A DNA stretch of 64,000 nucleotides from Bacteroidia bacterium (lineage in GTDB: Bacteria; Bacteroidota; Bacteroidia; J057; JAIXKT01), in assembly GCA_026932145.1 (NCBI GenBank), contig JAIXKT010000007.1, positions 266,673-330,672 on the forward strand, in the 5' to 3' direction. The notes beneath the pieces were generated by a model. That model was not told the origin of the DNA. It ran no database searches and saw only the letters and a list, made by a program, of their open reading frames with translations. The first letter of the stretch is position 1. The number at the start of each line of letters is the position of its first letter. The translations under genes were made by a program, and so were the position numbers. Of the stretch, positions 9,859-15,865 are shown one piece after another.

Positions 9859-10098
9859 ATGACTGATGTTGTTGAAACATTAAAGGTAGTTTTTCGCAAA
9901 ACATTTGAAAATAAAAATCTGGAAATCACGCGGGAAATGACCGCCCAAGACGTTTCCGGCTGGGATTCCTTGACACACGTTACCCTTATAAACAACGTAG
10001 AATCAACTTTTGGAGTTCGATTTAAACTTAAAGAAATTAAGCAAATGAAAAATATTGGAGATTTAATAGATACTATAAGTCGCCATCTTTCTGCATAA
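9859..10098 (+). CDS. Stand-alone acyl carrier protein (PP-binding)
   Basis: 79 residues, the usual ACP length. The phosphopantetheine attachment motif GWDSLTH is present with Ser37. The sequence begins MTDVVETLKVVFRKTF. It resembles the dedicated ACPs of specialised pathways (for example those paired with FkbH-like or acyl-transfer enzymes) more than AcpP, whose motif is usually LGADSLD. No synthase, acyl-activating enzyme or transferase lies next to it, so its partner is elsewhere. The peptidase gene starts 5 bp after the stop, so the two may be co-transcribed; a functional link is not evident. Confidence 0.85.
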   Translation: MTDVVETLKVVFRKTFENKNLEITREMTAQDVSGWDSLTHVTLINNVESTFGVRFKLKEIKQMKNIGDLIDTISRHLSA

Positions 10099-10103
10099 AA
10101 ATC

Positions 10104-11897
10104 ATGAAAAGAAGTATTTTATTTTTTAGCATCTATTTGATAATCAATTTATTAAATGCTCAAGATAAAGGTTATCAAAAACTAAGCCGGCAGCTAACAT
10201 CCGAAAAACCGGCTGAAGAATTATCCATTTACTTTAAGGATAAGTTACCGGAACTTGCCCATTCTGAAATACGCTTACTATATGACCGTTTTTCTGCAAA
10301 AGGTAGGCACATAACCTTTGCGCAGTTTGTAGAGAACCTTCCGGTATATCACGGTATGCTCAAAGTAAATATGAATCAGCAGTTGTATGCTTATGATTAT
10401 TTCAATGACCTCGTTGATATAACGCTACCTGTAAAGGGGAAATTTCAGTTTGATATTGATAATTGGGCAAACCATATACGGGAAACACGTGGAGGGTATC
10501 CTTATTTTAAAACCTCCGTTCAACCAATTGTTTATGCAACGAACCAAGAAGCTGTTTTTGCTTATCAGGTTACAACACATAACGACAGACTTAGCGGAGC
10601 ATACGAATTTATAGTAGATGCCGAAAAGGGGAGTATTTTAACAGAACGCCGCATTGCCAGTGATTCAGATACCTCCGGACGTGGAAAAGTATTTTATCCT
10701 GACCCGCTTACTTCCGCTATGCGCACGTACGGAAGCCCTTATGTAGATAATAGCAACCAAGATATAGCTGTTTTAAATAATGAACGCATTGAAGTTACCT
10801 TAACAGACATCACTTATGATTCTAATTTAGGGATTTTTAAGTTAGAAGGTCCTTACGTAAAACTCAGAGATTTAAGTCCGCCTGTAATCCCACCAGTAAC
10901 CAGCACAACCGGTGATTTTTTCTATACACGCGCTCAAAACGGCTTTGAAGATGTGAACGCCTACTATCATATCAATGGATACCAACGTTATGTACGTAGC
11001 CTTGGCTTTGACGACGGGCTACTGCAAGTGCCTCTATTGTTAGACCCACATGGCGGAACGGACGATAACTCATACTTTTCTCCAGATTCAGAGGAGCCAT
11101 CTATCAATATGGGTACTGGAGGTGTTGACGATGCCGAAGACGCTGACGTGTGCATCCATGAATACGGCCATGCACTGTCTTATGGTGCTTCACCAAATAC
11201 AAATGGTAACGATAATGAACGCCGCGGCCTTGACGAAGGATTTGGGGATTATATGGCCGCATCTTATTCTAAAAGTATCTCTAATTATCGCTGGAACGAA
11301 ACCTTTACATGGGACGGCCATAACTCTTTTTGGGACGGAAGACTTGCTAATAAAAATCAGAACTACTCTACTAATCTAATGAACTTCTATGACTACGGAG
11401 AAATATGGGCTTCTGCTCTGATGATGGTTTATGATAGAATCGGCAGAACCGCCTCTGATGCCAATTTCTTTACTGAATTGTATATGAACTCAACTAACAC
11501 TAACGTAAAAGCCGCTGCAAACAAAATTATTGTTGCAGACTCCATAAACTTTTCTGGCCAGCACACCAATGACTACATTATAGCCTTTTGTGCCAAAAAG
11601 ATATTTACCGGTGCAATCTGCAATTCAGTGTCAAGAGAAGTTTTATTAGAAAGGGCAAAAACAGAACTTAGTGTATTCCCCAATCCGGCTAATGGAAGTA
11701 TTTGGCTACAAGTGGACGGCAAATTAGTTACCTCCGGCCAAGCCAGAATTTGGAATATTCATGGCCAACTTGTTCGGGAAATTAATGTAATCCCAGAAAC
11801 CCCAATAGACGTATCAAACTTAACACCAGGAGTTTATCATATTGACTTTATCGTAGATAACCACATTTGGAACACTCGTTTTGTACTTACAGACTGA
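10104..11897 (+). CDS. Secreted M36/fungalysin-like zinc metalloprotease with T9SS sorting domain
   Basis: 597 residues. The signal peptide ends near LLNAQ. The propeptide-like region (about 30-180) contains a segment resembling an FTP/PepSY propeptide. The catalytic domain carries the HExxH zinc motif HEYGH at H352-H356, and RRGLDEGFGDY about 25 residues later supplies the third ligand Glu. The last 75 residues are a T9SS type A sorting domain: LSVFPNPANG, IWNIHGQLV, then LTPGVYHIDF. It is therefore probably exported by T9SS and surface-attached or released. M36 is my best family assignment; another gluzincin family is possible. Confidence 0.88.
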   Translation: MKRSILFFSIYLIINLLNAQDKGYQKLSRQLTSEKPAEELSIYFKDKLPELAHSEIRLLYDRFSAKGRHITFAQFVENLPVYHGMLKVNMNQQLYAYDYFNDLVDITLPVKGKFQFDIDNWANHIRETRGGYPYFKTSVQPIVYATNQEAVFAYQVTTHNDRLSGAYEFIVDAEKGSILTERRIASDSDTSGRGKVFYPDPLTSAMRTYGSPYVDNSNQDIAVLNNERIEVTLTDITYDSNLGIFKLEGPYVKLRDLSPPVIPPVTSTTGDFFYTRAQNGFEDVNAYYHINGYQRYVRSLGFDDGLLQVPLLLDPHGGTDDNSYFSPDSEEPSINMGTGGVDDAEDADVCIHEYGHALSYGASPNTNGNDNERRGLDEGFGDYMAASYSKSISNYRWNETFTWDGHNSFWDGRLANKNQNYSTNLMNFYDYGEIWASALMMVYDRIGRTASDANFFTELYMNSTNTNVKAAANKIIVADSINFSGQHTNDYIIAFCAKKIFTGAICNSVSREVLLERAKTELSVFPNPANGSIWLQVDGKLVTSGQARIWNIHGQLVREINVIPETPIDVSNLTPGVYHIDFIVDNHIWNTRFVLTD

Positions 11898-11932: not shown

Positions 11933-11964
11933 TTTGTAATATTGTGCAAAACAATTTAATTTTG
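11933..11964 (+). promoter_or_regulatory. Complete promoter for the HMA-lipoprotein operon
   Basis: TTTG at 11933-11936, a 20-bp spacer, TAATTTTG at 11957-11964. Good match in sequence and spacing. The predicted transcription start is about 11969, 25 nt before the ATG. Confidence 0.75.
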
Positions 11965-11993: not shown

Positions 11994-12494
11994 ATGTTTT
12001 CACTTCAAACGAAGCACTTATTCATAGGGTTAGGATTACTCGGTGCTTCTTGCGTCTTTCACGCATGCAAATCTACTAGTGCTAGCATCACTTTAGAGCT
12101 ATCTGGTCCTTGTGAAAACTGCCCACCAGATAGGCTAAATACGGTTCTAAAGGATGTCAAAGGAATTGAAGCCGTTAATTTTAGTGATGCTAATAACGAA
12201 ATTAATATTCAATACGACTCCTCGCTGGTTAAGTTAAGTTCAATTATTGGAATACTAAATGAATCCGGTTATGATGCCGGTGAGAATCTATCCACTATGG
12301 TTAGCAATCCCTCCCCTTGCTGCGTACTATCCGCAGAAGGAATTACAGATGAATTAGACATTGAAGAAGACGAATCCGAAGCAGATTCCTTAGCTAATGA
12401 CCTTGATTTATCTGACTTAGATGATTTGGATCTTGATGATGTAAACCAGAATGACGATATTAATTTAGATGAATTTGACAAACTTGATATTTAA
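11994..12494 (+). CDS. HMA-like metal-binding-fold lipoprotein with acidic tail
   Basis: 166 residues. Signal sequence with lipobox VFHAC (Cys about residue 25). Residues about 30-100 look like a heavy-metal-associated (HMA) beta-alpha-beta-beta-alpha-beta domain: ITLELSG, then CENC in place of the usual CxxC loop, then NTVLKDVKGIEAVNF, INIQYD and IGILNESGYDA. A second Cys pair (SPCCVL) follows. The last 50 residues are almost all Asp, Glu, Leu and Ser. It overlaps the next gene by 1 bp (TAATG). An extracytoplasmic metal- or thiol-binding protein is likely; the metal is unknown. Confidence 0.75.
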   Translation: MFSLQTKHLFIGLGLLGASCVFHACKSTSASITLELSGPCENCPPDRLNTVLKDVKGIEAVNFSDANNEINIQYDSSLVKLSSIIGILNESGYDAGENLSTMVSNPSPCCVLSAEGITDELDIEEDESEADSLANDLDLSDLDDLDLDDVNQNDDINLDEFDKLDI

Positions 12495-12862
12495 TGACAA
12501 TTTATGAAGTTGTAATACTGTTGCTTGTAGGGGCAATGGGAGGGATTTTAAGTGGCGTTGTGGGCGTAGGAGGCGGCGTTATCTTGGTTCCTTCCTTAGT
12601 GTTTTTCTTAGGGTTTTCGCAGCATACTGCTCAAGGAACGTCATTAGCTATGATGGTTCCTCCCGTTGGCATTTTAGCTGTATTGAACTACTACCAAAAA
12701 GGTCATGTCAATATTAAAGTTGCAGCAATACTATGTTGTAGCTTTATAGCCGGTTCCTATATAGGCTCCAAAATAGCCATTGGCCTAACCCCAACTCAAA
12801 TTAAAAGAACTTTTGGCTGCATATTATTCTTAGTATCCATTAAATTTATCCTCGGAAAATGA
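12494..12862 (+). CDS. Half-size TauE/SafE family membrane transporter
   Basis: 122 residues with about four hydrophobic segments. This is roughly half a normal TauE/SafE protein (about 250 residues with two homologous halves). The family signature GGILSGVVGVGGGVILVPSL is complete, as is HTAQGTSLAMM. The protein ends naturally after FILGK. Family members move sulfite, sulfoacetate or other organosulfur anions, and some are linked to HMA domains. As a half-unit it would presumably act as a dimer (inference). Start and stop overlap both neighbours, so it is translationally coupled in the operon. Confidence 0.85.
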   Translation: MTIYEVVILLLVGAMGGILSGVVGVGGGVILVPSLVFFLGFSQHTAQGTSLAMMVPPVGILAVLNYYQKGHVNIKVAAILCCSFIAGSYIGSKIAIGLTPTQIKRTFGCILFLVSIKFILGK

Positions 12863-13338
12863 ACCCAATTATTTGTATAGATTTTTCAGACTTTTTATAT
12901 GCCTTAGAAAATCGGGATATAAAAACCACGTATTATTTGGATAAAAATACCGGCGAAATTATTCCGCATTCACGTGAAGAAGAAGAAGAAAATCAGGAAG
13001 ATACAGGTGATACAGAAGCCACTAAACTTCCTCCATTTTCAGAGCTCCTTCAACGCTTCCCTGAACGTTATCTGCCAATTATTGCCTTTCCATCAAAAGA
13101 TTACTTTTCTACCATGCGCAGCTTTATAAGGCAGTTACCTAATAGTTTGGCCAAAACATTGCTGGGCAAAGCCTTAGATATGCCTAAACCTACCATGAAC
13201 TTTAAACAATATCTAAAAAGATACCCAAACGAGGCAGCACAATGGTATAGTTTTTATGACGAAAAACTACAAACTTTTGGCGAAGATTGGCTAAAATCTA
13301 ACCAAATAGATTTTTCTTGGAAAGATACTGACGAATAG
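12859..13338 (+). CDS. UPF0158 family protein
   Basis: 159 residues, no signal or membrane segment. Begins with a short strand-rich region (TTYYLDKNTGEII) followed by a very acidic loop of Glu and Asp. Then FPERYLPIIAFPSKDYFSTMRSFI, ALDMPKPTMNFKQYLKRYP and WYSFYDEKLQTFGEDWLKSN follow. This arrangement matches UPF0158, a family of unknown function. The ATG overlaps the TauE/SafE stop by 4 bp, and a MarR-type gene follows after 15 bp. It is probably the cytosolic member of the same operon. Confidence 0.75.
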   Translation: MNPIICIDFSDFLYALENRDIKTTYYLDKNTGEIIPHSREEEEENQEDTGDTEATKLPPFSELLQRFPERYLPIIAFPSKDYFSTMRSFIRQLPNSLAKTLLGKALDMPKPTMNFKQYLKRYPNEAAQWYSFYDEKLQTFGEDWLKSNQIDFSWKDTDE

Positions 13339-13353
13339 CTCTAATTTATCTGT

Positions 13354-13806
13354 GTGAAAATAGAAGAAGAAATCCATAGCTCCTTTGCAAGCAACCGACA
13401 AAAAATCGGTATAAACCTGATTTACACCGGAAATTGGTATCTTTATCATTCTACCACATTCTTCAAACGCTTTCATCTTACCGGACAGCAATACAATATT
13501 TTACGCATTTTACGTGGTGCTGAATCTAAGGTTTCCGTTAAATATATCAAAGAAAGAATGTTAGACAGGGTTTCTGACGTTTCCAGGGTTGTAGAAAAAC
13601 TAAGACTACGAGGACTGATAACTCGAAGCGAATGTAACATAGATAGACGCTTGGTTGATATTTCCATTACACTAAAAGGTATTAAACTCTTAGAAACTAT
13701 TGACCCTGAATTAAGTTGCTTAGATAGTTTCTTTACACATTTTACCGAAGAAGAACTTATCGAATTTAACCGGTTAATGGATAAACTCAGAGAACGAAAC
13801 AAATAG
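13354..13806 (+). CDS. MarR family transcriptional regulator
   Basis: 150 residues starting at GTG. Winged helix-turn-helix of MarR type: FHLTGQQYNILRILRG (helices 1-2), VSVKYIKERM and VSDVSRVVEKLRLRGLI (recognition helix), then the wing CNIDRRLVDISITLKG, where the usual Asp-Arg pair is present as IDRR. The C-terminal helix EEELIEFNRLMDKLRE would dimerise. As the last gene of the 11994-13806 operon it may regulate that operon. I see no obvious palindrome at the operon promoter, so target and ligand are unknown. Confidence 0.88.
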   Translation: MKIEEEIHSSFASNRQKIGINLIYTGNWYLYHSTTFFKRFHLTGQQYNILRILRGAESKVSVKYIKERMLDRVSDVSRVVEKLRLRGLITRSECNIDRRLVDISITLKGIKLLETIDPELSCLDSFFTHFTEEELIEFNRLMDKLRERNK

Positions 13807-13974: not shown

Positions 13975-15087
13975 TTAGACTTTTTTAATTTGGGCTTTGG
14001 TTAGGCTAATCCACCCCCCGCCCACAACGTCATCTCCTTCATAAAAAACTGCCGCTTGCCCGGGTGTAATTGATTTTACGGGTTCAGCAAAATAAACAAG
14101 AGCTTCTTGCTCGTTTTGCTGCGAAACAATCGAATAACTTCCCCTATCTCGATAACGAATTTTGGTATTTACGGGTAATTTTTCGGGAATAGTTTGATAT
14201 TTTACCAAATTTAACTTTTTGACCAACAGTGAGTTATTGTATAAATCTGCTTCTTTTCCGATTATAACTGTATTTGATTCCGGAATAATCTGCACTACAT
14301 AGTAAGGTTCCCCCATAGCCACAATTCCTTTACGCTGGCCAATGGTATAGTACGGATATCCTTGATGAGTTCCGACAACTCGCCCGTCTGTGGTAACAAA
14401 ATTACCCTCTGAAAGTTGGTTAATAGCTTCCGGATTGCGCCGGCCTATAAAGCCCCGGTAGTCATTATCCGGAATAAAACAAATTTCATACGATTCTGAT
14501 TTATTTACTAAGCTCTGAAACCCCATCTGAGAAGCCATCTGGCGAATTTCTGTTTTTAGAAATTTACCCATCGGAAAAAGTGTACGTGTCAAACTTTCTT
14601 GAGATAACCCCCAAAGTACATAAGATTGATCTTTTTGATTATCAACGCCTTTTGAAATTATATGACGATTATTTTCTGTACGCACATTTGCATAATGCCC
14701 TGTTGCAATAAACTCACAACCCAATTTATCTGCTCTTTTGAGCAAAGCATTCCACTTAATGTAAGTATTGCATACAATACACGGATTAGGGGTTCGGCCG
14801 GCAAGATATTCAGCTACAAAGTAATCAATTACAGATTCATTAAATTCTTCTCTGATGTCAAATATGTAATGCGGGAATCCTAACCTAACGGCAATATCTC
14901 GTGCGTCATGGATAGAATCTAAACTACAACAGCCTGTTTCCTTTTTTTCTCCCCCGCTGCTGGCATAGTCCCACGTTTTCATCGTTAGGCCAATTACCTC
15001 ATAACCAGCTTCATGTAACAAAACAGCGGTTACAGAACTATCTATTCCGCCGCTCATAGCAACTAATACTCGGCCATGCTTACTCAT
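13975..15087 (-). CDS. mnmA: tRNA-specific 2-thiouridylase MnmA
   Basis: Puts the 2-thio group on U34 of the Lys, Glu and Gln tRNAs, using ATP and a persulfide relay. 370 residues, normal length. The PP-loop SGGIDSS is at residues 12-18. The catalytic cysteines are C103 (NPCIVCN) and C203 (SYEICFIPD), matching the Cys102/Cys199 pair of E. coli. YTIGQRKGI and the C-terminal beta-barrel are present. It lies 17 bp downstream of comB on the same strand, so the two are probably co-transcribed. It converges with the MarR gene. Confidence 0.97.
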   Translation of the reverse strand: MSKHGRVLVAMSGGIDSSVTAVLLHEAGYEVIGLTMKTWDYASSGGEKKETGCCSLDSIHDARDIAVRLGFPHYIFDIREEFNESVIDYFVAEYLAGRTPNPCIVCNTYIKWNALLKRADKLGCEFIATGHYANVRTENNRHIISKGVDNQKDQSYVLWGLSQESLTRTLFPMGKFLKTEIRQMASQMGFQSLVNKSESYEICFIPDNDYRGFIGRRNPEAINQLSEGNFVTTDGRVVGTHQGYPYYTIGQRKGIVAMGEPYYVVQIIPESNTVIIGKEADLYNNSLLVKKLNLVKYQTIPEKLPVNTKIRYRDRGSYSIVSQQNEQEALVYFAEPVKSITPGQAAVFYEGDDVVGGGWISLTKAQIKKV

Positions 15088-15104: not shown

Positions 15105-15836
15105 TCAGGCATGAATTGGTTCAGCAAAAGGGAGGCGAACGAGTTTATCTCCGTCAAAAACAGGGATTACGGGGTGAGTATCTTTACGAAGACAATATTT
15201 TACGTCTTCTTGTAAATTTAGTGAAATCAGTTTCGTATAGTGAGAAGAATTTTTGATATAAAAACGTTTATCGGCAACGGCGCATTTATAGAGTGTTAAA
15301 GAAAGCATTGCGGCATCGTCAATGGGGGCATAGTGCCCTTGTAAGGCGGTTATCATTGCTCCGGCAAATACGGTATCTTCTAAATTTACCCGATTTTTCC
15401 AACCGGAACATAAAAAGATTACTTCCCGTTGCTGTGTTTTTAGATATTCTATGAGAATACTCATGTTTGAAAATGACCCTATCAAAATTTGATATGAGTT
15501 TTTAGCAGCATGGATAGCTTGGGTGCCATTGGTAGTTGTCATGGCAATTTTAGCCCCTTTAATTTTGGAAGAATTATAGGAAAATGGTGAGTTTCCAAAA
15601 TCATAGCCGGGTATCGGGATCCCGTTCCGTTCGGCTCCACATAAGTAGCCTAATGAACGGTATTCTTCGCAACTTTCTACCTGCTCTACCGGCACAATAA
15701 ATTCCGCCCCGCTGTCTAACGCTGCACACATACAGGTAGTTGCCCGTAAAATATCAATAACCACTACATTAGAATCTTCCGTTCTAAGTGTAGGTAGTAG
15801 CATCGGGGATAAACAAACTTTCGCCTTGGGCAACAT
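15105..15836 (-). CDS. comB: 2-phosphosulfolactate phosphatase (ComB family)
   Basis: Family reaction: 2-phosphosulfolactate to 3-sulfolactate, first described in coenzyme M synthesis. 243 residues from the ATG at 15836. A longer frame begins at TTG 15860, but that codon overlaps a TAATTTTG promoter element, so I reject it. Family segments seen: VVVIDILRATTCMCAALDSGA, LCGAERNGIPIPGYDFGNSP, AMTTTNGTQAI and VIFLCSGW. ComB proteins occur in many bacteria with no coenzyme M, where the role is unsettled. I infer a sulfonate-related role only weakly. Upstream partner of mnmA. Confidence 0.88.
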   Translation of the reverse strand: MLPKAKVCLSPMLLPTLRTEDSNVVVIDILRATTCMCAALDSGAEFIVPVEQVESCEEYRSLGYLCGAERNGIPIPGYDFGNSPFSYNSSKIKGAKIAMTTTNGTQAIHAAKNSYQILIGSFSNMSILIEYLKTQQREVIFLCSGWKNRVNLEDTVFAGAMITALQGHYAPIDDAAMLSLTLYKCAVADKRFYIKNSSHYTKLISLNLQEDVKYCLRKDTHPVIPVFDGDKLVRLPFAEPIHA

Positions 15837-15857
15837 ACGCAGAACTGTTTCGTATAG

Positions 15858-15865
15858 CAAAATTA
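15858..15865 (-). promoter_or_regulatory. -7 element for comB-mnmA
   Basis: Minus-strand TAATTTTG. Predicted start of transcription near 15853, about 17 nt before the chosen comB ATG. It rules out the upstream TTG start. Confidence 0.5.

Follow-up and report, generated by a model that had tools for sequence, protein, structure and literature searches.

A row of four genes in a Bacteroidia genome and the recurrent place of its HMA-domain lipoprotein gene behind an M36 peptidase gene

Layout and promoter of the row

In a stretch of 64,000 nucleotides from a Bacteroidia bacterium, the whole of which is called the window here, genes for a lipoprotein with an HMA-like domain, a half-size TauE/SafE protein, a UPF0158 protein and a MarR-family regulator follow each other on one strand (Table 1). 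Do they form an undescribed-looking compact system of capture and export, as a preliminary description of the locus had it, or are they ordinary genes that happen to be neighbours? The layout itself is as described, with four same-strand open reading frames and overlapping stops and starts: the stop codon of the lipoprotein gene shares one base pair with the start of the half-size TauE gene (TAATG), the latter overlaps the UPF0158 gene by 4 bp (ATGA), and the MarR gene, which does not overlap, follows after a gap of 15 bp. Such tight spacing suggests co-transcription of the four genes, and co-transcription in one species can be compatible with a shared role. Overlaps are frequent in the window, however, being present in 8 of its 35 pairs of neighbouring same-strand open reading frames (13 pairs lie within 20 bp), so that the main support for the row being special falls away.

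Table 1. Features of the four-gene row and its surroundings (positions in the window)
Feature	Position	Strand	Remarks
Acyl-carrier-protein-like gene	9859-10098		lone gene; PP-binding, E 9.9e-5; ends five bases short of the M36 gene
M36 (fungalysin-like) zinc metallopeptidase gene	10104-11897	+	T9SS C-terminal sorting domain
Bacteroidota-type promoter TTTG-N20-TAATTTTG	11933-11964	+	about 30 bp 5′ of the lipoprotein ATG
Lipoprotein gene	11994-12494	+	166 aa; predicted lipobox (C25 by alignment), HMA domain with GPCENC, distal CC, acidic tail
Half-size TauE gene	12494-12862	+	122 aa; TauE/SafE (TSUP) membrane protein, four long helices and one short, presumed homodimer
UPF0158 gene	12859-13338	+	159 aa; UPF0158 family protein
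MarR gene	13354-13806	+	150 aa, GTG start; MarR-family regulator of a type present in most Bacteroidia genomes
mnmA (tRNA 2-thiolation)	13975-15087	-	adjoins the row, convergent
2-Phosphosulfolactate phosphatase gene	15105-15860	-	adjoining region, convergent with the row

The promoter that had been supposed to precede the row was located as a match to a Bacteroidota-type promoter pattern, and its element recurs in relatives. The pattern TTTG-N20-TAATTTTG occurs four times in the window against 2.7 matches expected, that is, no more rarely than by chance, and the single site is therefore weak proof. The element TAnnTTTG was present upstream of the HMA gene in all six relatives from the same order that were read, as in the window (seven members of the order), and this in varied gene contexts; its distance to the ATG is mostly 16–37 bases among the six relatives, with 95 in one of them (L172), and the shuffle probabilities per sequence are 0.04–0.21, the six relatives not all being independent. 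Judged by this recurrence, the HMA gene has its own predicted promoter element, which is kept wherever the gene sits within the order. A sigma-70 scan returned promoter-like and terminator-like sites no more numerous than in shuffled sequences, and no forward terminator was found in the scan.

Conservation of the gene order

Among 22 genomes of the same order, close relatives of the half-size TauE gene were present in seven genomes other than that of the window, and the three partner genes were not near them. A wider search was made in a collection covering about 85,000 species, from which the best 80 half-size TauE loci were read with flanks of up to 6 kb: homologues of the lipoprotein, UPF0158 or MarR genes lay within 6 kb in none of the 80, many of the TauE genes stood before an M20-like amidohydrolase gene, and others were near unrelated genes. 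In the loci read, the UPF0158 gene was never beside the other three, and relatives of the lipoprotein gene were found in contexts other than the row. The check that the preliminary description had itself put forward, a neighbourhood search with the TauE half as query, thus turned out against it: the row was not kept at any distance compared. This comparison covers genomes of other families and higher ranks, and species closer to the window may still share the row; at the level of the family and above, the gene order is not kept, and the reading as a four-gene system is thus not supported.

According to that reading the lipoprotein would capture a metal or a thiol or sulfite compound, the TauE protein would export it, the MarR protein would sense it and the UPF0158 protein would assist. 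We consider it very improbable: the tight spacing, the single promoter, the compatible predicted roles and the sulfur genes nearby (mnmA and that of 2-phosphosulfolactate phosphatase) all speak for it, but the four genes stand in this order in no genome searched, the best 80 half-size TauE loci lie in unrelated operons, and the UPF0158 gene is rare. What had looked undescribed is composed of four known gene types in an order that relatives do not share. Since relatives of each of the four genes occur in different contexts, which supports the absence of a dedicated system, the row is likely to be peculiar to its lineage, four ordinary genes that follow the promoter of the lipoprotein gene, with an HMA protein that acts autonomously; the half-size TauE gene and, carried along with it, the UPF0158 and MarR genes would be read through from that promoter.

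The half-size TauE protein

The 122-residue transporter with a family signature was described correctly; it scores well over the cut-off of the Pfam TauE model (PF01925; 77.4 bits against 32.6, E 1.7e-21), with a match that covers only model positions 127–236 of 237, the C-terminal half. It shares the family signature with the TauE/SafE proteins of the TSUP family (PF01925, TC 2.A.102) and differs from them in having one repeat of about 120 residues rather than two; the chain comprises one half, where the family has two homologous halves of four helices each. Used as a query, it matches each half of a full-length paralogue in the same genome. The TSUP family has been described as poorly characterised (PMC5840216). 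A literature search returned nothing on half-size TauE proteins.

Open reading frames of this kind, mostly of about 119–130 residues and 36–61% identical, were found in Bacteroidota, Planctomycetota, Omnitrophota, Ignavibacteria, Nitrospirae, Cyanobacteria and others; the half-size protein of about 120 residues is a common form in many phyla and not a reduced oddity. It was considered whether the gene is a truncated pseudogene, which was rejected as it has the full length for its type. DsbD_2-type proteins also bear the name TauE/SafE in databases; assignment to them was rejected because Pfam gave PF01925 and not DsbD_2. A gene for a TauE protein of 120 residues should accordingly not be taken for a broken or specialised one.

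An AlphaFold model computed from an alignment of 58 sequences (pLDDT 87, pTM 0.71) has four long helices and one short helix. Neither the model (best E 2.7) nor the profile of the protein had a significant match among the structures and chains of the PDB. A homodimer is the natural inference from the single repeat; dimerisation would rebuild a two-repeat TSUP carrier, which might move an anion or a sulfur compound. The products of mnmA and of the 2-phosphosulfolactate phosphatase gene, convergent with the row, both deal with sulfur, a possible clue to the substrate of the TauE protein.

In two genomes of another family, a gene for a short Lys/Glu-rich lipoprotein lies directly before the half-size TauE gene (L039:5332-5604 and L041:2420-2740, both on the minus strand). 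This gene (in G003 and G004) was considered as the same gene as that of the HMA lipoprotein and rejected, its product being without CxxC and without an HMA domain. A thiolase-like gene adjoins the half-size TauE gene in one genome (L042:563-2267) and the HMA gene in another (L170:5740-7538), possibly by coincidence.

The UPF0158 and MarR proteins

The UPF0158 protein matches its Pfam family (PF03682) over nearly the whole length, with 52 bits against a cut-off of 21.1 (E 1e-13), and has no marked difference from other members. The family is rare, being present in 16 of 295 genomes of the class; a search against PDB sequences gave no significant match, and a literature search returned nothing on the function of UPF0158. 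The regulator scores 31.4 bits with Pfam MarR_2 (cut-off 27), and MarR matches are found in 212 of the 295 genomes. Its best relatives are about 45–50% identical over the full length and adjoin YceI-like, pirin-like, nitroreductase-like and other genes (named by eye); while MarR-family regulators of Bacteroidia are often beside YceI-like genes, that of the window is behind a UPF0158 gene instead. The tests run gave no link of either protein to a metal or to sulfite.

The HMA lipoprotein

The HMA-like domain attributed to the lipoprotein emerged from both profile matches and structure prediction. As a single sequence, the protein remains under the cut-off of the Pfam HMA model (PF00403; 19.0 bits against 24.8, E 0.0019); a profile of 11 relatives, searched against the PDB, matched ATP7B (E 3.3e-22) and CopA (2e-12), and also CopZ and MerP. 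A single-sequence AlphaFold model of residues 27–117 (pLDDT 69.7, pTM 0.60) has the order beta-alpha-beta-beta-alpha, its last strand being poorly predicted; its best match in the PDB is MerP (TMt 0.76), followed by others including CopZ (0.74) and the copper chaperone for SOD. A ferredoxin-like HMA fold is thus well supported by profile and model, and the structure prediction that had been proposed as a check gave the fold expected.

CENC is at residues 40–43 and the second CC pair at 109–110; the tail that follows has 56 residues, of which 43% are D or E. In 11 relatives, drawn from two separate groups, neither the two cysteines of CxxC nor the CC pair some 66 residues further on vary, and the D/E-rich tail is present in 11 of 11 (27–46%), so that the three features pointed out in the preliminary description are not only present but conserved. 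With MerP, CopZ and the domains of CopA and ATP7B (PF00403) the protein has in common the fold and a CxxC loop ending the first strand. It differs from them in that the loop is one residue shorter (GxCxxC instead of GMxCxxC) and in having the CC pair after the domain, the acidic tail and the lipoprotein signal. Through its CxxC the domain probably binds a soft metal, likeliest Cu(I), perhaps with help from the distal CC; the acidic tail would be a flexible appendage and may bind additional cations or a partner of basic charge. Outside the cytoplasm, the lipoprotein may by itself buffer the metal or act as its chaperone.

The residues after the lipobox cysteine, KSTSAS, are without the acidic surface-export signal of lipoproteins (defined in PMC5080379), which favours a lipoprotein facing the periplasm; it is probably anchored on the periplasmic side of the outer membrane, as far as its sequence can tell. 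The lipobox cysteine could alternatively be C20 and not C25, and in two relatives (L178, L179) the signal peptide lacks a lipobox.

Similar in features are secreted HMA proteins of Bacteroidota that end in CCKYRD and are encoded beside TonB-type receptors; they have the same short GxCxxC loop, distal CC and signal peptide, but no acidic tail, other gene neighbours and an identity of only about 27–31% to the window protein. As loop and distal CC are found in such secreted proteins across the phylum, the second CC is shared by a larger group, and it is the acidic tail that distinguishes the family of the window protein. By these motifs, the acidic-tail HMA proteins appear as a recognisable extracytoplasmic family of Bacteroidota, with GxCxxC, CC and acidic tail; a literature search returned nothing on acidic-tail HMA lipoproteins of this phylum. 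It might be asked whether the lipoprotein is a copper-tolerance factor akin to the CCKYRD proteins which has moved out of their cassette, as the profile search does reach those proteins with their shared loop and CC pair (and also L180 and L181); the low similarity, the lack of an acidic tail in the CCKYRD proteins and a window locus without a receptor gene or a gene for a small Cys-rich partner render this quite unlikely.

The M36 peptidase gene and its pairing with the HMA gene

Upstream of the row, outside the part covered by the preliminary description, lies a gene for an M36 peptidase. Pfam gave Por_Secre_tail (E 1.3e-8) and Peptidase_M36 (E 1.2e-4); as in fungalysin M36 peptidases with a T9SS tail, HExxH, a downstream E and the Por sorting domain are present, while the M36 score of 21.9 bits is slightly under the cut-off of 23.3. 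Nothing significant was found among PDB sequences. Orthologues with 31–41% identity are present in nearly all genomes of the order.

The M36 gene directly precedes the HMA gene on the same strand in the window and in L172, L178 and L179, four genomes from three families, at 31–35% identity and with an intergenic gap of about 78–127 bp; the three other M36 proteins are 32–35% identical to that of the window, and HExxH (H352, E353, H356) and the downstream E-G (E378) are invariant in all four. The flanks of the pair are the acyl-carrier-protein-like and TauE genes in the window, and an IMPACT/YigZ-like gene before and a LepB-like gene after it in the others (by eye). Since the flanks differ, the M36-HMA pair is the smallest shared block, and M36 is the only neighbour that the HMA gene keeps in relatives. 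What is worth keeping from this locus is hence not the row, which is ordinary, but the HMA family with its CxxC, CC and acidic tail and its repeated place behind M36.

The pairing may come from function or from old synteny. A functional version would have the lipoprotein work with the peptidase, delivering or withholding metal for a secreted zinc enzyme or being itself matured by M36, with the three downstream genes as bystanders. The recurrence of the pair in three families while the flanks differ argues for this, and by position alone such an adjacency has a chance of about 1 in several thousand per genome. We nevertheless hold it unlikely: the HMA gene is away from M36 in three other genomes (G001, G003, G004), most M36 genes of the order and the class are without an HMA neighbour, the HMA gene is preceded by a promoter of its own, which argues against a unit of the two, and ancestral synteny without shared function would give the same pattern. 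Moreover, CxxC HMA domains usually handle Cu(I) and not zinc, the metal that M36 uses. Its more specific form, an outer-membrane HMA lipoprotein acting as metallochaperone or metal guard for the type IX-secreted M36, in a pairing kept in three families, has a slim chance of being correct. For the metal supply of exported metalloenzymes in type IX secreting bacteria, the M36-HMA pair would be a simple test case.

Other neighbours of HMA genes were seen in single groups of loci. In a separate family (L174-L177) the HMA protein has an extra N-terminal membrane segment, and its gene adjoins a 2-oxoacid dehydrogenase-like gene in four of four loci. In two genomes (L171:5157-6989 and L173:3549-5339) genes that by eye are UbiX-like, 2Fe-2S ferredoxin-like and IscX-like are close to the HMA gene and may connect it with iron-sulfur metabolism.
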